From: Chromohalobacter nigrandesensis
GTDB lineage: Bacteria > Pseudomonadota > Gammaproteobacteria > Pseudomonadales > Halomonadaceae
Assembly (NCBI RefSeq): GCF_023061285.1
Contig: NZ_JAKGAM010000001.1
Span: 682,001-746,000 of the forward strand
Direction of reading: 5' to 3'
Length of the DNA: 64,000 nt
The translations under genes were made by a program, and so were the position numbers. The notes under the pieces were generated by a model. It saw only the letters and a program-made list of their open reading frames with translations, did no database searches and was not told the DNA's origin. Shown one piece after another: positions 14,962-27,859 of this stretch; the first letter of the stretch is position 1; each line of letters opens with the position of its first letter.

Positions 14962-16311
14962 TCAGAGCAATCCTAGATAGGCCTCGTATTCGATATCGGA
15001 AATGCGCTCGTTCAGGCAGCGGTGCTCCTGGCGCTTGGCTTGCGCATAGACACGCACGAACTCGTCGCTCAGGTATCCCCGCAGTCTCTCACTGTGATCA
15101 AAACGCTCGATGGCGTCCTGCCACTCGCAAGGCAACGGATAGCGGGGATTCTCTTCGGCGTAGGCATCACCTTCCACCGGGGCATCTGGCTCGAGTTCGT
15201 TTTCCATGCCATGCAGCGCACCAGCGAGAACGGCCGCCAGCACCAGATACGGGTTGGCATCGGCACCGGCTACCCGATGCTCGATCCGCCGCGCCTGATG
15301 GGGGCTTTCCGGCACGCGCAGCGCCACCGTGCGATTCTCGTAACCCCAGCTAGCATGAGTCGGGGCATGGGCGCCCGGCATGAAGCGGCGATAGGAATTC
15401 AGGTGCGGCGCGAACATCAGCATGCTCTCCGGCATCGACTGCATCAGCCCCGCAATGGCATGGCGCAGCAGATCGCTGCCCTGTTCGGTGCCGTCATCGA
15501 AGACATTGTTGCCGTCGCAGTCGAGCAGACTGAAATGCACATGAAAACCGTTGCCGCTTTCCTCGACATAGGGCTTGGCCATGAAGGTAGCCGCATAGCC
15601 ATGGCGACGGGCAACGCCGCGTACGAGGCGCTTGAACAGGATCGCCTGATCGCCCGCATTCAGCGGGTCGTCCACATGGTCGAGGTTGACCTCGAACTGC
15701 CCCGGGCCCATCTCGGCGATGATGGTATCCGCACCGATACCCTGTGCCTGACAAGCCGTGCGGATATCGGTAAAAAACGCCTCGAAGCCATCCATTTCCT
15801 CAACGGAATAACCTTCCGTATAGGCCAGGCGGCGGCCTTTGCCCTCTGCAAGTGCCGGCGGAATCGGACGCTGAATGCTTTCCGATTCGGCATCCATCAA
15901 ATAGAACTCAAGCTCGGTGGCCATCACCGGTGTCAGCCCCTTGTCGGCGAAACGATCCACCATGCGCTTGAGCACCTGGCGAGGATCGGCCTCGAAGGGC
16001 GTGCCATCAGGATTGAACATCATCGCCAGCATCTGGTCACGCGGCGCCTCCGACCATGGCACCGGGATTGGCGTTGCACTGACAGGCAGGCAGACACCAT
16101 CACTGTCGCCGGTCTCGAACACCAGGCCATTGTCCAGCACATCGGCACCCCAGAAATCAAAGCCCACCACCGAGCGCGGCAGTTTGAGCCCTTCCTTGCG
16201 GACCTTTTCCAGACCGCTGGCGGGCATACGCTTGCCGCGTAAATTGCCGTTCAAATCCGTGATGAAGAGATCCAGATCGCGGTTCTTGTCGTGTTTTTTA
16301 TTCGTCGCCAT
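14962..16311 (-). CDS. Gamma-glutamyl-polyamine synthetase, second copy (PuuA/PauA-like)
   Basis: GS-fold ligase of 449 residues, paralogous to 4752-6119. Motifs include ELEFYLMD, EMGPGQFEVNLDH, NSYRRFMPG and ENRTVALRVP. The N-terminus DLFITDLNGNLRGKRMP places it in the polyamine ligase branch. It is divergent from a LuxR-type gene and upstream of the GATase, so it repeats the ligase-regulator pairing seen at 4752-6956. The two ligases probably differ in amine substrate, as do the PauA paralogues of Pseudomonas. Confidence 0.85.
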   Translation of the reverse strand: MATNKKHDKNRDLDLFITDLNGNLRGKRMPASGLEKVRKEGLKLPRSVVGFDFWGADVLDNGLVFETGDSDGVCLPVSATPIPVPWSEAPRDQMLAMMFNPDGTPFEADPRQVLKRMVDRFADKGLTPVMATELEFYLMDAESESIQRPIPPALAEGKGRRLAYTEGYSVEEMDGFEAFFTDIRTACQAQGIGADTIIAEMGPGQFEVNLDHVDDPLNAGDQAILFKRLVRGVARRHGYAATFMAKPYVEESGNGFHVHFSLLDCDGNNVFDDGTEQGSDLLRHAIAGLMQSMPESMLMFAPHLNSYRRFMPGAHAPTHASWGYENRTVALRVPESPHQARRIEHRVAGADANPYLVLAAVLAGALHGMENELEPDAPVEGDAYAEENPRYPLPCEWQDAIERFDHSERLRGYLSDEFVRVYAQAKRQEHRCLNERISDIEYEAYLGLL

Positions 16312-16364
16312 ACGTGTGACTCTTGAATGCTTTTCGAAATCAGAGCATCAAGATATCCCATCCA

Positions 16365-16393
16365 GATAGTGGTGTATCTATCACCCCAGGGGT
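16365..16393. promoter_or_regulatory. Nested dyads in the divergent ligase/LuxR region
   Basis: The segment holds GATAG...CTATC (16365-16369 with 16378-16382) and the perfect 11-bp palindrome ACCCCAGGGGT at 16383-16393. The string ATACCCCT, read on the minus strand here, also occurs near 9906 upstream of the aminotransferase. The gap of 228 bases between the divergent ligase and regulator genes makes an operator plausible. No binding data exist; the call rests on symmetry alone. Confidence 0.45.
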
Positions 16394-16539
16394 ATCCGAT
16401 CAACGGAAGACGTCATCTATCTCTGCCTGCGACATGGCCCGAAGGCGAGCCGGGCTGGTACCGGCCCACCATCTGGCTTAGCCTTGGTAAAATTCCTGAA
16501 AGCCTCCTTTCGGCCGCCTACAAGAAGCAAGGATAAGCG

Positions 16540-17352
16540 ATGAGAGATCGCGTCAATCAGATACACACCAATGAGAGTTGGCAGAAAAACCTGGCCGTAC
16601 TCATCGAGCATCAGCGGCTGCGCAGTTTTCCGATGATGCTGGAGGCCTTCCTGTCGACCCTGTGTTTCTTCGACACGATTCTGCTGCTGACCTACAAGAA
16701 ATCGCTGCGACCGATTCTCGTCCACCCTTCCGACCCGGCGGAGCAGAGCGATACCCTACGCCAGTACATCAATCATGCCTATGTACTCGACCCCCTGTTC
16801 CACGCCATCAAGGACACCGCACCCCCCGGTATCGTGCGGCTTGCCGATATCATGCCGGATTCGTTCAAGAGTACCGAGTACTATCAAACCTGCTACCAGA
16901 ACTTCGGGCTGGTGGATGAGATCAACCTCTTGATCCGCCTCGATGACGAAGTGACCTGCGCCATCACGCTGGGGCGCAAAGCCTCGCTGGAAAGCATTTC
17001 GCGTACCGAACTGAATGCCCTGCAAGAGTTTCACCCTGTCATCAGCGCGCTCATGCGCCAGTTCTGGCAGACCCAGTCCGACGAGTTCCTGCAATATGGC
17101 CGCTCCGACGACCCCATGAAACGCGCGCTACGCACCTTCGCCAGCGGCGTGCTGACTCAGCGTGAGCGAGAAATCACCGATCTGATCCTGCGGGGTTTTT
17201 CCTCCCAAGCGATTGCCGACCATCTGACAATCAGCGTCGGCACGGTCAAGGTGCATCGCAAGAATATTCATGCACGACTAAACACCTCTACCCAGGCGGA
17301 AATCTTCACACAGTTCATCAACCACCTGAGTCACCTGGAAGAGCATCACTAG
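16540..17352 (+). CDS. LuxR-type transcriptional regulator (copy 2)
   Basis: Protein of 270 residues with a C-terminal LuxR helix-turn-helix (LTQREREITDLILRGFS...GTVKVHRKNIHARL) and an N-terminal sensor-like region related to the regulator at 6126-6956. The ribosome site AAGGATA precedes the ATG. It is divergent from the second PuuA-like ligase, the usual layout for a local regulator. The N-terminal ligand is unknown. Confidence 0.85.
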   Translation: MRDRVNQIHTNESWQKNLAVLIEHQRLRSFPMMLEAFLSTLCFFDTILLLTYKKSLRPILVHPSDPAEQSDTLRQYINHAYVLDPLFHAIKDTAPPGIVRLADIMPDSFKSTEYYQTCYQNFGLVDEINLLIRLDDEVTCAITLGRKASLESISRTELNALQEFHPVISALMRQFWQTQSDEFLQYGRSDDPMKRALRTFASGVLTQREREITDLILRGFSSQAIADHLTISVGTVKVHRKNIHARLNTSTQAEIFTQFINHLSHLEEHH

Positions 17353-17383
17353 AAAGACCTCCTCCGAGCCTGCAAGGCCAATG

Positions 17384-18136
17384 TCAGATACACATGCGCC
17401 GGTGGCGATATAGCCACGCGACATCAATCGCAAACGAATACGTCAGCAATACCAGCGCCAGGCTCACACAGAGCATGGCCCAGAAAGGCGCGACGAACGG
17501 CAGCAGCGCCACCAGCAGGCTGGCGACTTGCCATACACACACCAACTGGCGACGAAAGCTTGGGGGGAGCGGCCGTTGCAGCCAGTGCCACACCCACCCT
17601 GCCGCGACGAACACATAGCGCAGCGCCCCGCACAACAGCACCCAACCGCCCAGCTTGTCGAGCACCACGAGCGCGCAGCACAGCACCGCGATGAAGAAGG
17701 CATCCAGCTCCATATCGAAACGGGCACCGAAGCCAGTGACAGAATGCGTATGCCGGGCCACCCAACCATCAAGGCCGTCCAGGCACAACGCCAGCAATGC
17801 CAGTCCCGCCATTTCCAGCGCATGACGCTGCATGAAAGCAGGAAACACCATGCTGCCGGCAAGCAGGGCGACCAATATCCCCCGCAACAAGGTCACGCGA
17901 TTGGCCCAACCCAGCCAGCGCGATGCCGTCGGCCAGGCCCACACGATCATGACCGCCATGCCCAGATACACACCGCCCACCGCCCAGCCAAGCCCCGCAG
18001 GTGCCGCCAGATGCCACTGCAAGGCCTCCACCAGCACGCCCACCAGGCATAGGCCTAGCAGAAGTTCCAGCATCGCCGGCAGACCATGGGCCCAGGACGG
18101 CCTGCGGCCAGTGGTGTGGGGGGACGTGGAACGCAT
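17384..18136 (-). CDS. CDP-alcohol phosphatidyltransferase family membrane enzyme
   Basis: The start at 18136 has the strong site GGAGGAAG; the longer frame to 18283 lies in a promoter-like AT-rich region. The 250 residues carry the complete family signature D-G-x2-A-R-x8-G-x3-D-x3-D at 123-145 (DGWVAR, then G137, D141, D145), between hydrophobic segments. The enzyme transfers a phospho-lipid group from a CDP-linked donor to an alcohol acceptor in the inner membrane. It is divergent from the dehydrogenase/PTPS/GT4 operon and probably works with it. It lacks the flanking features of PgsA, PssA or Cls, so the acceptor is unknown. Confidence 0.82.
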   Translation of the reverse strand: MRSTSPHTTGRRPSWAHGLPAMLELLLGLCLVGVLVEALQWHLAAPAGLGWAVGGVYLGMAVMIVWAWPTASRWLGWANRVTLLRGILVALLAGSMVFPAFMQRHALEMAGLALLALCLDGLDGWVARHTHSVTGFGARFDMELDAFFIAVLCCALVVLDKLGGWVLLCGALRYVFVAAGWVWHWLQRPLPPSFRRQLVCVWQVASLLVALLPFVAPFWAMLCVSLALVLLTYSFAIDVAWLYRHRRMCI

Positions 18137-18223
18137 GCCCTTCCTCCGCAGCCTTTTGGTTTCACTATGGCAGAGGCACCGGTGACCAGCGCAATTTTTA
18201 CTAAGCTGATAGCACTCGATGCT

Positions 18224-18270
18224 TATAATAAAAATGGTACAAAAACGATCCTGTGTACAATACCTGTACA
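18224..18270 (+). promoter_or_regulatory. Divergent promoter with three NGTACA half-sites
   Basis: A perfect TATAAT is at 18224-18229 in an AT-rich patch unlike the GC-rich surroundings. Downstream come GGTACA at 18236-18241, TGTACA at 18254-18259 and TGTACA at 18265-18270. The first two are spaced N12, the last two start 11 bases apart, one helical turn. I recall that MerR-family LitR light regulators of Pseudomonas recognise T(G/A)TACA-N12-TGTA(C/T)A, close to the first pair. The region separates the CDP-alcohol transferase gene from the operon starting at 18317. Confidence 0.55.
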
Positions 18271-18316
18271 TGAATGGTGTCATGGACGATACTCAAGGCA
18301 AAGAAGGAGATTTGCC

Positions 18317-19294
18317 ATGCACGCAGCGAACGCCCAGGCTTTCTGGATACAGGCACCGGGGCACGGTGAAATCAGACAGCACGCCCTGCCCGACCTCCAG
18401 GCGCATGAGCTGTTGATCAGAACACGCTACAGCGCCGTCAGTCGCGGCACCGAAAGTCTGGTATTTCAAGGCAAGATCCCGGAGAGCGAATACACCCGCA
18501 TGCGCGCGCCCTTTCAGGAAGGCGATTTCCCGGGGCCGGTCAAATATGGCTATGCCAACGTCGGCGTGGTCGAAGAAGGGCCGGGGGCCTGGCGTGGCCG
18601 CGAGGTATTCTGTCTTTATCCGCACCAGACACGCTACGTCGTTCCTCTCGAGTCCGTCGTGCCACTACCCGAGGATCTTCCCGCCGCGCGTGCAGTCCTC
18701 GCGGCCAACATGGAAACCGCCGTCAATGCCCTGTGGGACGCCGCCCCACGCGTCGGCGACCGGATCAGTGTCGTCGGCGCCGGCGTGGTCGGCAGCCTGG
18801 TCGCCTGGTTATGCCAACAAACGGCTGGCGCGCGCGTGCAACTGCTCGACATCGATGCCGGCAAGGCCGAACTGGCCGCCGCACTGGGCCTGCCCTTTCG
18901 CCACCCACGCGATGCCGAGGACGAGCAAGACATCGTGATCAACGCCAGCGGCAGCCCTCACGGCCTGCGCAGCGCTCTGGAGCTGGCGGGATACGAAGCG
19001 GAGATCATCGAGCTGAGCTGGTTCGGACGCGACGAGGTCACGCTGCCGCTCGGCGAGGCTTTTCACTCGCGGCGATTGACCCTGCGTGCCAGCCAGGTGG
19101 GCGGGGTCTCCCCGGCCAGACGCGCGCGACGCAGCCATGCCCAGCGTCTGCAACTGGCCCTGACGCTACTTCGCGATGCCCGCCTCGATGCCTTGATCGA
19201 CGCTGAAAGCGATTTTCACGACTTGCCCACTACATTGGCACGCCTGAGCGACACGGATCGCCCGGCGCTATGCCATCGCATACGCTATTCGTGA
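18317..19294 (+). CDS. BchC-like MDR dehydrogenase of the pterin/lipid cluster
   Basis: Medium-chain dehydrogenase/reductase fold of 325 residues from the ATG at 18317 with an AAGGAGA site. The N-terminal GroES-like part includes SAVSRGTESLVFQGKIP and PVKYGYANVGVVEEG, close to the BchC type. The cofactor loop SVVGAGVVGSLVAWL is at 151-165 and ends with the acidic LLDID, which favours NAD. No structural zinc cysteine cluster is seen. The substrate is unknown. It is the first gene of an operon with the PTPS-like, GT4, methyltransferase and flippase-like genes. Confidence 0.75.
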   Translation: MHAANAQAFWIQAPGHGEIRQHALPDLQAHELLIRTRYSAVSRGTESLVFQGKIPESEYTRMRAPFQEGDFPGPVKYGYANVGVVEEGPGAWRGREVFCLYPHQTRYVVPLESVVPLPEDLPAARAVLAANMETAVNALWDAAPRVGDRISVVGAGVVGSLVAWLCQQTAGARVQLLDIDAGKAELAAALGLPFRHPRDAEDEQDIVINASGSPHGLRSALELAGYEAEIIELSWFGRDEVTLPLGEAFHSRRLTLRASQVGGVSPARRARRSHAQRLQLALTLLRDARLDALIDAESDFHDLPTTLARLSDTDRPALCHRIRYS

Positions 19295-19388
19295 CGCCAC
19301 CGCCATGCGGTGGCGCCCATCCAACACGCCTAACCAGTAACACGCATGACCGGTATTACGCATCGGCAATACATAAGGAGTCACACGG

Positions 19389-19787
19389 ATGTTCAGCCTG
19401 ACGGTTAGAGACCACTTCATGATCGCGCACAGCTTCAACGGCGAGATCTTCGGCCCTGCACAGCGCTTGCATGGCGCCACCTATGTGGTCGATGTCGCCT
19501 TCAAGCGCCCCGAACTCGACCGCGATGACCTCATCGTCGATATCGGCTTGGCCAGCCAGACGCTGTCGCGCGTGCTGAGCGATCTCAATTTCAATAACCT
19601 CGACGACGTGCCCGAATTCCGGGGGCGCAACACCACTACCGAGTTCATGGCCAAGGTGATTTTCGAACGGCTCACCCACGCCATCCGCCAGGGCGAACTC
19701 GGCGAGACCGGGCATGGCCTGACGGCCCTCGGCGTCACGCTGCATGAATCGCATATCGCCTGGGCGAGTTACGAGGGCGCGGTATGA
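19389..19787 (+). CDS. COG0720 (6-pyruvoyltetrahydropterin synthase/QueD-like) protein lacking catalytic residues
   Basis: Protein of 132 residues with the T-fold pattern of PTPS/QueD. His14 and His28 keep two zinc-ligand positions, but the usual LHGH motif reads LHGA (Ala30 for the third His). The nucleophile Cys position is Ala24, and the DHHYLN segment reads NFNNLD (67-72), so the catalytic His is also absent. The late Glu120 in LHESH remains. It therefore matches neither the QueD (CxxxHGH) nor the PTPS-III (ExxxHGH) type. The ribosome site AAGGAGT is good, and the stop overlaps the GT4 start by four bases. It may bind a pterin or pyrimidine, or catalyse a different step. Confidence 0.8.
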
Positions 19788-20833
19788 GTCATCCCGTGAC
19801 CCTCATCGTCGCTGGCAACCCCGCGCAGTTGACCGGCGGCTACGTCTACGACGCACGCGTCGTCGCGGCCCTGCGCGAACACGGCTGGCCGGTCGAGGTG
19901 ATCGGCCTCGAGGGGCGTTTTCCCGAACCCGACGCCACGGCGCAAAAGGCCCTGGAAAACGCCTTGGCGGCCCAGCCCGAGGGTGCCCATGTGATCATCG
20001 ATGGACTCGCGATGGGTGGCTTGCCCGACGTCCTCGAGACCCATACCCAGCGCCTGACGCTCACCGCCCTGATCCACCATCCGCTCGCCGATGAAACCGG
20101 CCTCGGCGACGCCGAGCGCGAGCGCTTCTTGATCAGCGAGACGCGCGCGCTGTCGGCGGTGCGCGACGTCATCGTCACCAGCCTCTTCACCGCGCGGCGT
20201 CTGGCGGATTTTCAGGTGGCTGCGCAGCGCTTGCACGTGGTCGAACCCGGCGTGACGCGCGCCACGCCGGCACATGGCAACGGCGATGTGCCGCGCCTTT
20301 TGTGCGTGGCCACGGTCACCCCGCGCAAGGGACATGACGTGCTCGTCGAGGCGCTGGCCACGCTGACCGACCTGCCCTGGACATGCGACTGCATCGGCGG
20401 CCTGGATCGCGCGCCGGCGCATGTCGCGCACGTCCAGCAACGTATCGCCGCCCATGGCCTGGAAGAACGCATTCACCTGCTCGGCGAGCGATCCGCCGAT
20501 GCTCTGGACAAGGCCTATCACACCAGCGATATCTTCGTGCTGCCCTCGCATTACGAGGGCTACGGCATGGTCGTCAGCGAAGCCCTTGCACATGCCTTGC
20601 CCGTGGTTACCACCACCGGCGGCGCCCTCGCTCATACTCTGCCCGACGATGCCGGCCTCAAGGTGCCGCCCGGCGATGTCGAGGCCCTCGCCGCTGCGCT
20701 GCGCGAGATGCTCGGCGATCCGCGCAAGCGTCAAGCATGGTGCGAAGGTGCCGAGCGCGCCCAGGCCTCGCTGCGCGACTGGTCACAGGTCGGCGCGGCC
20801 TTCGCCGCCGCCTTGCAGCGAGGCGCCGCATGA
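19784..20833 (+). CDS. GT4-family glycosyltransferase
   Basis: GT-B fold enzyme of 349 residues. The C-terminal half shows [20 protein letters not shown] and the E-x7-E donor motif [11 protein letters not shown], then [20 protein letters not shown], typical of GT4. The start ATG overlaps the upstream PTPS-like stop, and the stop overlaps the next methyltransferase start, both as ATGA. It transfers an unknown activated sugar to an unknown acceptor at the cytoplasmic face. Context suggests glycosylation of the product of this cluster. Confidence 0.85.
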
Positions 20834-21696
20834 ACACCGCCGGTACGTTCAGCGAATCCTGGCTGGCGCAGCGCGAGCAGGCCGATCACGACGCCCGCGC
20901 CATGGCGCCCTTGCACGCCGCCAGTGACTGGCTTGCCACGCGTGGGAGCCACGTTCCCTGGCAACTACTCGATCTGGGCAGTGGCAGCGGCGCCAATGTA
21001 CGCTACCTCGCGCCTCGCTTGCCCGGCACTCAGCACTGGTGCCTGGTCGATCATGACGATTCTCTGCTCGATCATGCCGTGGGGCGCTGTCAGTCCTTGC
21101 GCGATAACGCGGGAGCGCCTATCCACGTGACCACGCAACAGCGCGACCTGCATGCCCTCGAGGCATCGTGGTTCACCGGTATCGACCTCGTCACCGCCTC
21201 GGCGTTGTGCGATCTGGTCAGTGCTGACTGGGTCGAGGCCCTGGCCGACGCCTGCGCGGCCCAAGGCGCCGCGGCACTGATCACGCTCAGCGTGGATGGC
21301 GAAATTCATTTCCAGGCCGATAACGTGGCAGTCAATGACGCCGAAGATGCCTGGCTCTTCGCGCTCCTCGCCGCGCATCAACGCCGCGACAAGGGCCTGG
21401 GTCCCGCGCTGGGCACCACGGCACCCCAGACATTGATCGAAGCCTTCACCGCCAGAGGCTTTCACCTCGTCGACGCTGAAAGCCCCTGGCGCCTGACGCC
21501 GGCGCAACGCCCCCTGGCGCTGAGCCTGATCGACGGCTGGGCCAACGCCGCCCGCGAACAAGCGCCACATGATCGTCAGCGCATCGAGCGCTGGTGGCAA
21601 CATCGCCGGGAGGCCCTCGAGCGGGGCCGACTCGATCTATACGTCGGGCACCGCGACCTGTTCGCCGCCCCGGGGCCCGCCCATGCGTCCCGCTAA
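20830..21696 (+). CDS. Class I SAM-dependent methyltransferase
   Basis: The 288 residues begin at the ATG overlapping the glycosyltransferase stop. SAM motif I is LLDLGSGSG at 46-54, followed by the acidic LVDHDDSLL. The C-terminal third has no domain I can name. The frame continues upstream as a shadow of the GT4 gene, so the coupled ATG was chosen. The stop overlaps the membrane-protein gene by 14 bases. The substrate is probably an intermediate or the final lipid-linked product of the cluster. Confidence 0.82.
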   Translation: MNTAGTFSESWLAQREQADHDARAMAPLHAASDWLATRGSHVPWQLLDLGSGSGANVRYLAPRLPGTQHWCLVDHDDSLLDHAVGRCQSLRDNAGAPIHVTTQQRDLHALEASWFTGIDLVTASALCDLVSADWVEALADACAAQGAAALITLSVDGEIHFQADNVAVNDAEDAWLFALLAAHQRRDKGLGPALGTTAPQTLIEAFTARGFHLVDAESPWRLTPAQRPLALSLIDGWANAAREQAPHDRQRIERWWQHRREALERGRLDLYVGHRDLFAAPGPAHASR

Positions 21697-22663
21697 GGCG
21701 ACCCTCGTACGCCTGGGCGTGAGCCTGGCGCTGATCGGGGTGCTCGCCTGGCAACTCGACACGCGGACGCTGCGTGACGCCTTCGCCACCCCCGCGCCGG
21801 GCTGGCTGTTGCTGGCATGGGCCCTCAGCGTACCCCAGGTGGTGCTCTCCGCCTGGCGCTGGCGCCTGACCGCCCGACGCATGGGGCTTAAGTTGCCGCT
21901 GCGCCGTGCCGTGGCGGAATACTACATGGCTACCTTTCTCAACCAGGTACTGCCGGGCGGCGTCATTGGCGACGCCTCGCGGGCCTGGCGCCATGCCCGG
22001 TCGAGCAGCGACCGCCCACGGGCGTGGCGCGCGGTGATCATCGAACGCCTCTCCGGCCAACTGATGCTGGCCGTAATCGCCATCGCGGGGCTCATGGCCT
22101 CATCGGACTTGCGCGATAGCGTACTCGGTAGCCTTGTCCGGCTGGGTAATGTCCCTGGTGCGCTGACGATAGGGATCATCATGCTGGGCGGACTGGGAAT
22201 CTGGGGCTATCGCCGTCCGCCGGCCTGGCTACGCGACACGCTGGGCGATCTCGGCGCCGCCCTGGTCGCCTCGCGCATGTGGTTCTGGCAATGCCTCAGT
22301 TCGCTGGGTGTGGTGGCGAGCTATATCGCCATCTACGCCATCGCCGCTCGTGGCGTGGGGGCCGATATCCACCTCGCCACCCTATTGCCGTTGATTCCGC
22401 CGGTGCTGATGGTCATGGCGATTCCCCTCTCGGTAGCCGGTTGGGGATTGCGCGAGAGCGCCGCCGCATTGGTGTGGATGGGGGCCGGGCTGGATCCCGC
22501 CCAGGGCGTGGCCATTTCACTGGTCTACGGGGTCATCGTGCTGGTCTCGAGCCTGCCGGGCGCCTGGCTGCTCTGCCGCCGTCGTCCCCCGCGCCGGGGT
22601 CGCGAGACTCGGACAGGCGCTCCGCTAACGAGCAAGCGTGGAGGAGGCTGCCATGCGCGATGA
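21683..22663 (+). CDS. UPF0104/AglD-like flippase-like membrane protein
   Basis: Integral membrane protein of 326 residues with about eight hydrophobic spans, related to the lysylphosphatidylglycerol-synthase transmembrane region (the MprF flippase domain, without its synthase part). Motifs include YYMATFLNQVLPGGVIGDASRAW, written here as YYMATFLNQVLP then GGVIGD, and the late GWGLRESA. It is the last gene of the operon and is translationally overlapped. It would fit a step moving the lipid product across the inner membrane. It ends six bases before the palindromic-ended repeat. Confidence 0.8.
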   Translation: MRPAKATLVRLGVSLALIGVLAWQLDTRTLRDAFATPAPGWLLLAWALSVPQVVLSAWRWRLTARRMGLKLPLRRAVAEYYMATFLNQVLPGGVIGDASRAWRHARSSSDRPRAWRAVIIERLSGQLMLAVIAIAGLMASSDLRDSVLGSLVRLGNVPGALTIGIIMLGGLGIWGYRRPPAWLRDTLGDLGAALVASRMWFWQCLSSLGVVASYIAIYAIAARGVGADIHLATLLPLIPPVLMVMAIPLSVAGWGLRESAAALVWMGAGLDPAQGVAISLVYGVIVLVSSLPGAWLLCRRRPPRRGRETRTGAPLTSKRGGGCHAR

Positions 22664-22669
22664 CGCAGA

Positions 22670-22806
22670 GGGTATTTACAAAAGGGCTGCACTCGACAAT
22701 CCGGCGTTAAAATCGGCCTCAAAAGACTCATTTACCCCATGTAAACTCCGTGTTTTCGGCCAATTTTGCCTTGTCTTGCCATCGTTCGCCTGTTTTGTAA
22801 ACACCC
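22670..22806. repeat. Palindromic-ended dispersed repeat, copy 1
   Basis: This 137-bp element has ends GGGTATTTACAAAA and TTTTGTAAACACCC, an inverted repeat with two mismatches. Its interior aligns along its length to the reverse complement of 24929-25069, sharing for example GGCGTTAAAA, CTCATTTAC, GTAAACTCCG and TTTTGCCTTGTC. It sits between convergent genes and stops two bases before the reductase stop codon. It contains no gene. A MITE- or REP-like element that may also act as a bidirectional terminator is the likely nature. Confidence 0.8.
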
Positions 22807-22808
22807 TC

Positions 22809-23654
22809 TTACACCGTATGACCGGGACGCAGCGTCAGATCGAACAGCGTGTCGTCGCCCATCGCGAACGTGCGACACGGCGGACGCAGGGCCGCGTCGA
22901 GGGTCTCGATTTCGGCCAGGCTCACCGCCGGGCGCCCCGAGCCGATCAACAGCGGCGCCACGACCACATGCAGGCGATCGAGCTGGCCATCTGCCAGAAA
23001 ACGCGACACGGTTTGCCCGCCGCCTTCGATGAGCACCCGGTGAAGACCGCGTGCCGCCAGGGTATCGAGCAGCGCTGCGGGCGTCAGGCCGGCGGCACTC
23101 TCGGGCACCAGCGATTCGACGTGTCCGCCCAGGGTATCGCGCGGCAGCGGATGCCGGGTGATATGCAGCGTCGAGGCATCGCCGTGCTGGAACACGCCGC
23201 TGGTCGCGGGAACGCGGCCGTTGGGGTCGAGAATCACGCGTACCGGATTGTCTCCCGGCACATGCCGCACGGTGAGTTGCGGGTCGTCGGCACAGGCCGT
23301 GCCCGCCCCGATGATCACGGCATCGACCAGCGCGCGCAGGCGGTGCAGGTGCACGCGGCTGGCCTCGCCGGTGACGTAGTGCGAGGCGCCGGTGATCGTG
23401 GCGATACGTCCATCGAGGCTCTGCCCGAGTTGCGCGATGACGAAGCGCCCGGGTGTCGCACTGCTCGGCAACAGACTATCGAGCAGCGCCGTCGCCTCCG
23501 CCGTGACCGGGCCCTCGGCTTGCCAGGCGCCGCCGCGCCAGACGCGCAGCCGGCCATCCGCCAGCGTCAACGCCGCATGGGCGCCCCAGTCCTCGCGTCG
23601 AGCCTCGCAAATCGCCTGCCAGGCCAGCGCCACATCGAGTGTCGCAGGACTCAT
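22809..23654 (-). CDS. RibD C-terminal-type reductase without deaminase domain
   Basis: Of 281 residues from the ATG at 23654 (GGGAGA ribosome site), about 1-70 match nothing I know. Residues 71-281 are a RibD_C/DHFR-fold reductase: FVIAQLGQSLDGRIAT at 71-86, GAGTACADDPQLTVR near 116-130 and LIEGGGQTVSRFL towards the end. The deaminase domain of bacterial RibD (HAE and PCxxC zinc motifs) is missing. It may reduce the ribose of a pyrimidine formed by the adjacent cyclohydrolase, as in the archaeal and fungal order of riboflavin synthesis. It is divergent from that gene. Confidence 0.82.
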   Translation of the reverse strand: MSPATLDVALAWQAICEARREDWGAHAALTLADGRLRVWRGGAWQAEGPVTAEATALLDSLLPSSATPGRFVIAQLGQSLDGRIATITGASHYVTGEASRVHLHRLRALVDAVIIGAGTACADDPQLTVRHVPGDNPVRVILDPNGRVPATSGVFQHGDASTLHITRHPLPRDTLGGHVESLVPESAAGLTPAALLDTLAARGLHRVLIEGGGQTVSRFLADGQLDRLHVVVAPLLIGSGRPAVSLAEIETLDAALRPPCRTFAMGDDTLFDLTLRPGHTV

Positions 23655-23684
23655 ACGGTCTCCCGTGCCGTGTGCCAACGAATA

Positions 23685-23694
23685 TGTCATGACA
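23685..23694. promoter_or_regulatory. Palindrome TGTCATGACA between reductase and cyclohydrolase genes
   Basis: A perfect 10-bp palindrome lies midway in the 83-base divergent gap. A second half, GACACGTCATC, follows directly. Its position suits one regulator controlling both directions. No regulator gene lies next to it, so the assignment as operator is tentative. Confidence 0.4.
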
Positions 23695-23737
23695 CGTCAT
23701 CGAAGCATTACGACGCGCAAAAACCAAGGAGAGGCTC

Positions 23738-24892
23738 ATGAGACAGGTAGAACGTGCGATCTTCGATTTGCGCCGCGGCCTTCCGGTCGTGCTGCGCACC
23801 CCGCAAGACGACGTCTTGATCCAGCCACTGGAAGGCATCGACGATACCGCCCTGAGCGCGCTCGCTGATATGGCCGGTCACGCGCCCGGTCTAGTGATTA
23901 CCACGCATCGACTCGCTTCCCTGGGCACGCACGCGCCCGAGGGCGCCGACGCAGTCCGCCTGCCCCTCGGCACGCATCACCGCGCCAGCGATGTCGTCGC
24001 CTGGGCGATGGCGGCCATGGCCGAGCCTCCGGGCATCCAGCCACCCGCCCCCGCCTCAGCGGCGGAAACGGCCGCGCTGAATTTGATGCGGCGTGGCCAG
24101 TTAGTGCCCGCCGCGCTCAGCGCCCGTGTCGACGCCACGCGGCGCGAAGCCATGGCTGCGCTCATCGACGACGGCACCCTGCTTGGTGTAGCACTCGACG
24201 ACGTGCAACGCTACGGCGAAGGTGACACGACCACCCTCAAGCGTATCAGCGAAGCCAACGTGCCCCTCGCCGATGCCGAACAGGCCCGCTTCGTGCTTTT
24301 TCGCGAAAGCGACGGCCTGCGCGAACATCTAGCGGTGCTGGTCGGCGATCCCACCGAGTGGGCGGACGCCGTGCCCGTGCGTCTGCATTCGGCCTGCCTG
24401 ACGGGCGATCTGTTCGGCAGCCTGCGCTGCGATTGCGGCGAGCAGTTACGCACCAGCGTGGCGGCCATTAGCGAACATGGCGGTGGCATCCTGCTGTATC
24501 TCGCCCAGGAAGGACGCGGTATCGGCCTGGCCAACAAGCTGCGTGCCTATGGCCTGCAGGATACCGGACTGGACACCGTCGATGCCGATCAGGTGCTGGG
24601 CTTCGGCGAGGACGAGCGGCAGTACCGCGCCGCGCTGCAGATGCTCGCCGAGCTTGCCGTCACGCGTATCGCGCTGTTGACCAACAATCCCGAAAAGATC
24701 GCGGCCATGAGCCTCGGCGGCATCGATGTGATGGGTCGCGAAGCCTGCTATGGCAAACTCAACGAGCACAATCGGCGCTACCTGAGCGCCAAGGCCGAAC
24801 GCGCCGGCCACTGGCTGGAGGACGTGCTCGAAAGCCGCGATGTCAGCGACAGGCACGCCCTGCACCGCGATACCTCCGGCTCGCTCGAATGA
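23738..24892 (+). CDS. GTP cyclohydrolase II with degenerate N-terminal RibB-like domain
   Basis: Converts GTP to a 2,5-diamino-6-ribosylamino-pyrimidinone phosphate, formate and pyrophosphate. Of 384 residues, about 165-375 form the cyclohydrolase: zinc ligands Cys220, Cys231 and Cys233 in CLTGDLFGSLRCDCG, Tyr254 and Arg260 in ILLYLAQEGRGIGL. The Tyr is retained, so full opening rather than a formylated product is expected. Residues 1-150 resemble the size of a DHBP synthase domain, but the DREN acid motif is absent. The ribosome site AAGGAGAGG is strong. Probably a specialised paralogue rather than the housekeeping ribA. Confidence 0.87.
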   Translation: MRQVERAIFDLRRGLPVVLRTPQDDVLIQPLEGIDDTALSALADMAGHAPGLVITTHRLASLGTHAPEGADAVRLPLGTHHRASDVVAWAMAAMAEPPGIQPPAPASAAETAALNLMRRGQLVPAALSARVDATRREAMAALIDDGTLLGVALDDVQRYGEGDTTTLKRISEANVPLADAEQARFVLFRESDGLREHLAVLVGDPTEWADAVPVRLHSACLTGDLFGSLRCDCGEQLRTSVAAISEHGGGILLYLAQEGRGIGLANKLRAYGLQDTGLDTVDADQVLGFGEDERQYRAALQMLAELAVTRIALLTNNPEKIAAMSLGGIDVMGREACYGKLNEHNRRYLSAKAERAGHWLEDVLESRDVSDRHALHRDTSGSLE

Positions 24893-24898
24893 CGTGAT

Positions 24899-24917
24899 GC
24901 GCGCCATGCTGGCGCGC
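24899..24917 (+). terminator. Hairpin after the cyclohydrolase gene
   Basis: The stem GCGCGCC/GGCGCGC with loop ATGCT begins seven bases after the stop. The following CTCTCACTCT is only partly T-rich, so this is a weak intrinsic terminator at best. The adjacent repeat may add to termination. Confidence 0.4.
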
Positions 24918-24928
24918 CTCTCACTCTA

Positions 24929-25069
24929 GGCTATGTACGAAAAGTCGGCGAGCGAAGGTCAGACAAGGCAAAAATCTGCGAAAAGGCGGAGTTTACGGGG
25001 TGTAAATGAGTACTTTGAGCTGATTTTTAACGCCGTATGGCCGAGCACAGGCAGTTTTCGTACATAGCC
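24929..25069. repeat. Palindromic-ended dispersed repeat, copy 2
   Basis: This 141-bp element has perfect 15-bp terminal inverted repeats (GGCTATGTACGAAAA and its complement). It is homologous to 22670-22806 in the opposite orientation. It lies between the convergent cyclohydrolase and creatininase genes, and its last base is the first base of the creatininase stop codon as read on the plus strand. Both copies thus occupy the same kind of site. No gene is carried, so any transposase would have to act from elsewhere. Confidence 0.85.
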
Positions 25070-25895
25070 TACGGGGAGCGTTCGCGCAGTTGGCCCAGAT
25101 CGAAGCAGCCGGCTTCCTCGATCACGCTCGCCAGGCGCGCGGCGAAATGCGCCACCAGGCGCTCCCCCAGGGCCGGCGCGGCCAGAGTCGCGTTGCCCAC
25201 CACGCCGCTGGGGTGCAGGTCCTGCGCCATCCAGGCGAAACCGGCATCGCCCTCGGGCAACAGCGTGCGTCCTGCACGTTCCTGATGGGCGCCCAGCGAG
25301 ACCGCTTCGTCGAGCTCGGCCCGGCGGACCTTGTGCGGCGCCAGATGCATCATCATCGCGGTTTCCAGCGCCCCGCCGTGCAGTCCGTGGCGCAACTCCT
25401 CGGCGGGCAGCGCGTCTTCGGGCGGCGTGAAGCGAAAGTAATTCGCCTTGATCACCAGCAAACCATGCCGCTGGCGTAACTTGAGTGCCGCCAGGTCGAC
25501 CACCGCCTTGTTGCCGCCATGGCTGTTGAACAGCACCAGACGGCGAATGCCCGCACGCGCCACGCTGGCACCGATATCCACCAGGTGGGCGATGGCCGTC
25601 TCCGGCGTCAGACTCAAGGTGCCGGCGAAGTCGCCATGCTCGAGGCTCGACCCCACCGCCAGGGTGGGCAGTATCAGCACATCCCGCGACGCCTCGACAC
25701 GTGTGCACATCGCCGCGACCAGGCCCTCGACGATATCCACGTCGGTGGAAAGCGGCAGGTGCGCGCCATGCTGTTCGATGGCCCCCAGCGGCAACAACGC
25801 CACGCTCTCCGGGCCTACGCATCGGGCCAGCTCGGGGCTGCTCAACGACGCCCAGTCGACGCCACCGTTCGCAGTATTTTCAGGCGATGAAGCGT

Positions 25896-25899
<4 letters not shown>
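25069..25899 (-). CDS. Creatininase-family amidohydrolase (ArfB/MftE-like)
   Basis: Metal-dependent amidohydrolase of 276 residues with the family ligands Glu42, His44 and Asp53 in LGAIEQHGAHLPLSTD, the loop NSHGGN, and the Glu in HGGALETAMM. Relatives include creatininase, archaeal ArfB formamide hydrolase of riboflavin synthesis and MftE peptidase. The ATG overlaps the recD stop (ATGA) with a GGAGGAGAG site, so it is cotranscribed with recCBD, yet it also converges on the cyclohydrolase gene. An ArfB-like step on a GTP-derived pyrimidine is attractive but unproven. Confidence 0.83.

Positions 25900-27859
<1,960 letters not shown>

Follow-up and report, generated by a model that had tools for sequence, protein, structure and literature searches.

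What is made by a bacterial gene cluster that sets enzymes of pterin and pyrimidine chemistry beside enzymes of lipid assembly? We addressed this question for a locus of Chromohalobacter nigrandesensis (contig NZ_JAKGAM010000001.1, positions 682,001 to 746,000; this whole stretch of 64,000 nucleotides is the window below), where a sequence-only reading had placed eight gene families at 17384-25899 and suggested a joint product, perhaps a pyrimidine- or pterin-containing glycophospholipid. The cluster is real, wide and, as a pathway cluster, undescribed. The gene grouping exceeds chance because the same genes surround a protein of the PTPS-IV subfamily in 31 other sampled genomes and at most of 80 named loci. 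We propose that the product is a glycoside of a pteridine or aminopyrimidine, anchored to a lipid in this host and probably regulated by light. Derivation of the heterocycle from GTP is likely, as is its glycosylation, and lipid attachment is likely for this host only. The combined reading, a biosynthetic cluster around PTPS-IV that makes a GTP-derived glycoside, joins it to a lipid in this host and is probably controlled by LitR and light, is held tentatively, at somewhat less than even confidence.

Pfam searches located all eight families within 17384-25899, at coordinates that proved exact and with scores above the Pfam cut-offs; one core member, the BchC-like dehydrogenase, had been overlooked. 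From left to right, the locus contains:

17384-18136, minus strand: CDP-alcohol phosphatidyltransferase family membrane enzyme (PF01066, 4e-16; 250 amino acids from the chosen ATG, with the open frame extending to 18283)
18236-18288, no strand: candidate LitR/CarH-type operator in the divergent promoter (GGTACA-N12-TGTACA-N5-TGTACA-N12-TGGACG)
18317-19294, plus strand: BchC-like medium-chain dehydrogenase (TIGR01202, 4e-12; next to PTPS-IV in all 31 sampled genomes)
19389-19787, plus strand: PTPS-IV (COG0720, FGPAQ type; PTPS Pfam 6e-25; 3d7j, SCO6650, 2e-53)
19784-20833, plus strand: GT4-family glycosyltransferase (PF00534, Glycos_transf_1, 1.7e-30)
20830-21696, plus strand: S-adenosylmethionine-dependent methyltransferase (Methyltransf_25, 28.4 bits, cut-off 27)
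21683-22663, plus strand: flippase-like membrane protein (LPG_synthase_TM, PF03706, 7e-40; paired with the CDP-alcohol transferase)
22653-23741, plus strand: open frame antisense to all of ribD, without Pfam match
22809-23690, minus strand: RibD_C-type reductase without deaminase domain (PF01872, 2e-40)
23738-24892, plus strand: GTP cyclohydrolase II paralogue with N-terminal extension, NF006456 type (GTP_cyclohydro2, 1e-53)
25069-25899, minus strand: creatininase-family metal hydrolase (PF02633, 1e-65)

The PTPS-like, GT4, methyltransferase and flippase-like genes overlap by approximately 4 to 14 bases. The methyltransferase passes narrowly, with one of its three Pfam matches above cut-off. 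The dehydrogenase scores 45.8 bits with TIGR01202 against a cut-off of 291 and is thus outside BchC proper; the label of zinc alcohol dehydrogenase, used in annotation elsewhere, was also rejected, as the matches are weak only.

How far is this neighbourhood conserved? A PTPS search at 1e-10 of a phylum sample of 397 genomes gave 58 matches with a clean gap between 32 of at least 179 bits and 26 of at most 56 bits. The latter were excluded as other COG0720 members, and so were four weak PTPS matches (at most 42 bits) of another search. We then compared the surroundings in the 31 strong genomes besides the window's own (10 from the same family, 3 more from the same order and 18 from elsewhere) and at 80 named loci, which are the best 80 of 490 confirmed and mostly Halomonadaceae; the closest, that of C. 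sarecensis, has a PTPS 98% identical. Flanks of 10 kb around PTPS-IV were used, with some contigs ending sooner. It should be noted that the cut-offs of the neighbour profiles were chosen after the scores had been seen, and that the flippase threshold was set at 240 bits because antisense frames polluted its profile. The counts for the 31 genomes and the 80 loci, respectively, were 31 and 78 for the dehydrogenase, 30 and 79 for GT4, 29 and 75 for the methyltransferase, 27 and 74 for the reductase, 15 and 73 for the CDP-alcohol transferase, 14 and 68 for the flippase, 13 and 60 for the cyclohydrolase, and 7 and 59 for the creatininase-family gene. GT4 and methyltransferase form a single frame of more than 560 codons at 33 of the 80 loci and in 6 of the 31 genomes.

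Thus, the following three parts can be told apart: (i) a core of dehydrogenase, PTPS-IV, GT4, methyltransferase and reductase; (ii) a lipid module, CDP-alcohol transferase and flippase, which the core gains; (iii) a GTP-entry module, cyclohydrolase and creatininase-family enzyme, which it gains likewise. For the lipid module, the 31 genomes divide into 14 with both genes, 1 with the transferase only, none with the flippase only and 16 with neither (Fisher p 6e-8, uncorrected for kinship), and the named loci into 65, 8, 3 and 4. Since the two genes travel as a pair and both are missing beside the core in 16 of the 31 genomes, attachment to a lipid seems to be an added feature. For the GTP-entry module, the named loci comprise 59 with both genes, 1 with cyclohydrolase only, none with the creatininase-family gene only and 20 with neither; the corresponding numbers for the 31 genomes are 5, 8, 2 and 16. 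The core also occurs on plasmid loci (15 examined out of 26 records) of Streptomyces, Microbacterium, Arthrobacter, Rhizobiaceae, Methylosinus, Rhodobacterales, Thiodictyon and haloarchaea. It is common to the actinobacterial and haloarchaeal loci; at the haloarchaeal and Streptomyces loci, the profile used detected no RibD_C.

This modularity bears on whether the product is a lipid at all. If the CDP-alcohol transferase and flippase were add-ons or had another substrate, the product would be a soluble pteridine or pyrimidine glycoside or a cofactor, a possibility that we take seriously at well below even chance. The 16 genomes that have the core without the lipid pair beside it agree with a soluble product, and so do two Rhodobacterales plasmids with only dehydrogenase, PTPS-IV, methyltransferase and RibD, where a sugar-kinase family gene lies nearby. 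Conversely, the Halomonadaceae and Rhizobiaceae loci hold transferase and flippase as a pair inside or adjoining the core, and absence was counted beside the core, so that the lipid genes could sit elsewhere in those genomes. Because transferase and flippase are absent from 16, cyclohydrolase from 18 and the creatininase-family gene from 24 of the 31 core neighbourhoods, a glycophospholipid is unlikely as the product of all loci. The missing lipid genes and cyclohydrolase, and two Streptomyces plasmid loci that carry PTPS-IV without any other cluster gene beside it, weigh against our proposal. What stands of the suggested joint pathway is a conserved set that unites riboflavin-type pyrimidine chemistry, sugar transfer, methylation and, often, lipid genes.

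Several envelope-type families lie within 10 kb of the core in the 31 genomes: membrane GT2 (13), FkbM methyltransferase (10), cytochrome b561 (7) and a sulfatase-like membrane protein (6); all four are broad families, and adjacency was checked in fourteen loci. A cytochrome b561-type gene is found near the core at L018, L103, L109, L110, L156-L158, L160 and L168-L170, which hints at a redox-active membrane product.

What, then, is the protein at the center of the cluster? The window PTPS carries the FGPAQ signature of PTPS-IV. Among 126 aligned members, F21, G22, P23, A24 and Q25 are kept in 124, 126, 124, 124 and 124, respectively; the position of the catalytic Cys is Ala in 124, as is that of the third zinc His; and His14, His28 and Glu120 are invariant. 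Canonical PTPS and QueD have a Cys nucleophile and three zinc His (CxxxHGH type), and the window protein does not show this pattern. Because the catalytic Cys and one zinc His are replaced by Ala, the protein is, as judged by motif, not a working PTPS or QueD. It does keep Glu120, and in T-fold enzymes this Glu holds a 2-amino-4-oxo ring. One solved chain is matched, 3d7j, SCO6650 of Streptomyces coelicolor (2e-53 over 131 residues), which reportedly has neither zinc nor PTPS activity. This member of the same subfamily is entered in the PDB as uncharacterised.

Haloarchaea and actinobacteria that carry PTPS-IV commonly make F420, and this would fit a role of PTPS-IV in deazaflavin synthesis. 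Such a role is also given, as an unpublished statement without data, alongside the FGPAQ signature in the portion of PMC5041015 available to us; as the only paper naming a function for PTPS-IV, it counts against our proposal. Nevertheless, we consider the F420 explanation very improbable and reject it for this host because no FO synthase scores above cut-off in the whole genome (cofH, the one gene tested, reaches 24.5 bits against 374). The available part of PMC5445326 describes PTPS-IV by the FGPAQ signature and by the neighbours PF00925 (cyclohydrolase II) and PF01872 (RibD_C) as AGeNNT cluster-node 62, with 561 sequences, and assigns no function there. All three features recur here; the dehydrogenase, GT4, methyltransferase, CDP-alcohol transferase, flippase, creatininase-family gene and operator are our additions. 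The assertion that no characterised pathway has this set was therefore too broad, as the PTPS-IV neighbourhood with cyclohydrolase II and RibD_C was printed in 2017 (PMC5445326, PMC5041015, as far as their accessible text goes). Our search of the literature available to us found no publication describing the whole gene set.

Which reactions could these genes carry out? From family knowledge, cyclohydrolase II would open GTP to 2,5-diamino-6-ribosylamino-4(3H)-pyrimidinone 5'-phosphate. As had been said of the motifs, those of the cyclohydrolase, the CDP-alcohol transferase and the creatininase-family enzyme are intact in alignments. The zinc Cys, QEGR loop and RAY Tyr of the cyclohydrolase are in place (each zinc Cys in 79 of 79, Tyr 271 in 78 of 79), consistent with GTP cyclohydrolase II, and its Tyr-type residues are those of the classic enzyme. 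The creatininase-family enzyme may act early in the pathway by hydrolyzing an amide or a formamide.

The reductase would next form the ribityl phosphate and keep the 2-amino group. It contains RibD_C only, with no N-terminal deaminase domain, and so differs from bifunctional bacterial RibD, bearing out the description of a RibD-type reductase without deaminase. Since no deaminase adjoins it, the natural product would be ribityl-diaminopyrimidine phosphate. The closest solved structures are the diaminopyrimidine (DARPP) reductases 6p8c and 2azn. At the site occupied by Lys in three bacterial RibD chains and by Asn in 6p8c and 2azn, 103 of 110 cluster reductases have Gln, 6 have His and 1 has Arg. 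In bacterial RibD, this Lys reads the deaminated ring; as the cluster reductase is without it, we infer that a 2-amino substrate fits. Archaeal and fungal diaminopyrimidine reductases resemble the cluster enzyme in structure and in their stand-alone RibD_C domain, whereas they differ in having Asn in place of Gln (6p8c, 2azn), and the cluster has neither a lumazine synthase nor a riboflavin synthase.

PTPS-IV and the BchC-like dehydrogenase might then yield a pteridine-like or modified aminopyrimidine compound, and the often fused GT4-methyltransferase pair could glycosylate and methylate the heterocycle. In this host, the CDP-alcohol transferase would join the compound to a phosphatidyl group, plausibly via a sugar-alcohol phosphate, as PgsA-type enzymes do with glycerol phosphate, and the flippase would move the lipid outward. 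Our central guess is that the sugar-alcohol phosphate end of ribityl-diaminopyrimidine phosphate suits a PgsA-type transferase. The motif D-x2-D-G-x2-A-R-x8-G-x3-D-x3-D is kept in 97 of 97 CDP-alcohol transferases, pointing to membership of that family; the closest named families (archaetidylinositol-phosphate synthase, PssA and PgsA) all score far below cut-off.

The early genes might instead only boost or bypass riboflavin supply, with cyclohydrolase, a BrbF-like formamidase and reductase acting together and the other genes being unrelated neighbours; we judge this improbable. The change of Tyr to Met in GTP cyclohydrolase II yields a formylamino product, and the Streptomyces fungicidicus plasmid copy (L105, 14479-15138), the sole cyclohydrolase with Met, stands beside a creatininase-family gene, making the two a candidate formamide-forming pair and a point in favor of riboflavin supply. 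Such a supply has a precedent in BrbF of Sinorhizobium, a formamidase of the creatininase family that acts in riboflavin synthesis and whose partner cyclohydrolase is still missing according to the available text of PMC9478397, and of the 60 named loci with a cyclohydrolase, 59 also have a creatininase-family gene. The likeness to BrbF and ArfB as described there is that of a creatininase family beside GTP-to-pyrimidine chemistry; the model scores, however, are far below cut-off (24.6 bits against 180 for ArfB), and a Tyr-type cyclohydrolase, as kept in 78 of 79, should leave no formamide. Furthermore, RibD and PTPS-IV remain with GT4 and methyltransferase where cyclohydrolase and creatininase-family genes are gone. 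The genome also has housekeeping riboflavin copies elsewhere, with RibD_C at C50 (398 amino acids) and cyclohydrolase II at C2 and C50. Because of these separate rib genes, the cluster is rejected as the main riboflavin pathway, and its genes do not dissolve into an unrelated known one. If our proposal of a GTP-derived glycoside is correct, a lipid or glycoside class built from a riboflavin branch would be added, and PTPS-IV, a solved yet unexplained protein family, would gain a function. The pairing of creatininase-family and cyclohydrolase genes would also offer candidates for the cyclohydrolase partner missing in BrbF bacteria (PMC9478397, available text).

What might switch the cluster on? 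The LitR-type operator half-sites at the cluster promoter and their co-occurrence with LitR are new here. The divergent promoter of transferase and dehydrogenase carries four half-sites (18236-18288), in which GGTACA-N12-TGTACA has one mismatch; two TGTACA-like half-sites thus stand 12 bases apart, an arrangement common to the genus. Footprinted LitR sites in Pseudomonas read T(G/A)TACA-N12-TGTA(C/T)A (PMC9758184, available text), and their N12 corresponds to a half-site spacing of 18. We surveyed 122 dehydrogenase upstream regions, including that of the window; as these regions are related, their counts cannot be treated as independent. Pairs of half-sites with two mismatches or fewer were found at spacing 11 in 47 regions and at spacing 18 in 30, versus 2.2% and 1.4% of random stretches, and each of the remaining sixteen spacings from 7 to 24 in no more than 4 of the 122. 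The frame of four sites, when up to six mismatches were allowed, occurred in 23 of 122 regions but in 3 of 968 random stretches and in none of 366 shuffles. Of the 32 genomes with PTPS-IV, all 11 of the same family and none of the 21 others have LitR (1e-20); 7 of the 11, and again none of the 21, carry the operator pair at spacing 11 with two mismatches or fewer. Six of the 11 LitR promoters contain an N12 site with one mismatch or none.

The genome, 3.64 Mb in size, has one LitR-like gene (MerR; 110 bits with the CarH model, cut-off 400), followed by photolyase, SnoaL-like, short-chain dehydrogenase/reductase, amine-oxidase and cyclopropane-synthase genes. The LitR regulon of Pseudomonas putida and P. 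mendocina, in the accessible text of PMC9758184, similarly contains a run of LitR, photolyase, short-chain dehydrogenase/reductase, FAD oxidoreductase and a gene of the cyclopropane/furan fatty-acid synthase type, shares the N12-spaced half-sites and includes light-induced folE, folM and folX, which make pterins. It differs in that the putative target here is the PTPS-IV cluster and a LOV partner was not found in the host. In the whole genome there are 13 N12 sites with one mismatch, versus 3 for the reversed-pattern control; one each lies at the cluster, the LitR promoter, a divergent epimerase and upstream of ferrochelatase, and of the other nine, the surroundings of five were inspected in part.

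Several points weigh against this regulation. The window sites alone are within chance (9 of 100 shuffles reach their N12 count), at three mismatches spacings 16 and 17 are elevated as well, and 5 of 11 LitR promoters are without a good N12 site. The regulator belongs to class II of LitR, its B12 domains score below cut-off, and its Pseudomonas kin need a LOV partner; none of the nine PAS_9 matches of this genome has the LOV motif. A sigma-70 consensus was not found. Taken together, a LitR-type repressor probably controls the cluster in Halomonadaceae, and light control is plausible; with such a repressor, the product would serve in light or photo-oxidative stress. The most specific version of our proposal is a light-induced membrane lipid with a glycosylated, methylated ribityl-pteridine or aminopyrimidine head group from GTP, which would serve as a sunscreen or as a singlet-oxygen or redox agent and would have been spread by plasmids among proteobacteria, actinobacteria and haloarchaea. 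We think this version unlikely as a whole; if true, it would establish both a lipid class and an offshoot of riboflavin chemistry that are new. The LitR link gives the orphan cluster a trigger that can be tested in cultured halophiles, namely light.

The N12 site upstream of ferrochelatase (G000:C12:263134-263157, L188; PF00762, 396 bits) lies just in front of that gene, and light control of haem synthesis is possible.

Does the frame opposite ribD have a meaning of its own? In the window, it starts with an ATG behind GGAGGAGG (22640-22647), overlaps the flippase stop and ends in ATGA on the cyclohydrolase start codon; five Chromohalobacter-type loci likewise have a separate antisense frame with this ending. 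Among 77 convergent flippase/ribD pairs, the flippase frame spans all of ribD in 36, approximately 0.84 to 0.9 of it in two, 0.37 of it in one and no part of it in the other 38. The full-length antisense extension of the flippase frame is a feature of Halomonas relatives. Loci where either the flippase frame or a separate one stays open opposite all of ribD and ends at the start codon of the cyclohydrolase are the window (22653-23741), L034-L052, L056-L099 (part), L141, L146 and L147. In ribD of 23 of the 36 loci (GC below 0.60), TTA, CTA and TCA codons, which are stops on the other strand, numbered 0 versus 273 expected from five other cluster genes; L055 and L067 were excluded, and adding them and L061 gives 5 versus 308. 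The other A-ending codons of these genes are at 0.6 to 1.4 of expectation, and at loci with short flippases antisense-stop codons numbered 139 versus 133 expected. In 33 of 36, the flippase frame stops 13 bases past the A of the cyclohydrolase ATG. As the 36 loci were selected for openness, the argument rests on how large the deficit is, on the all-or-none division of the loci and on the fixed position of the stop. A conserved antisense protein was considered and rejected, the conservative-change test giving no support (ribD 0.073 above null versus 0.067 for the dehydrogenase). Identity at fourfold sites is 0.537 in ribD, 0.538 in PTPS-IV and 0.41-0.46 in four other genes. Our reading is that translation may be carried across the nested, opposite ribD to reach cyclohydrolase.

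Three minor observations concern the surroundings. Within 16000-27000, Rfam gave no match to a riboswitch or other RNA. A LuxR-type regulator gene (16540-17352) left of the cluster is probably not a member, because it adjoins the cluster in only 1 of 31 sampled genomes and at 3 of 80 named loci. Finally, an imperfect palindrome of approximately 150 bases, resembling a miniature inverted-repeat transposable element, occurs in two copies of opposite orientation (22667-22809 and 24920-25078) with terminal inverted repeats of 17-24 bases; a DNA search of the genome at 0.001 gave 12 matches, of which several are partial.

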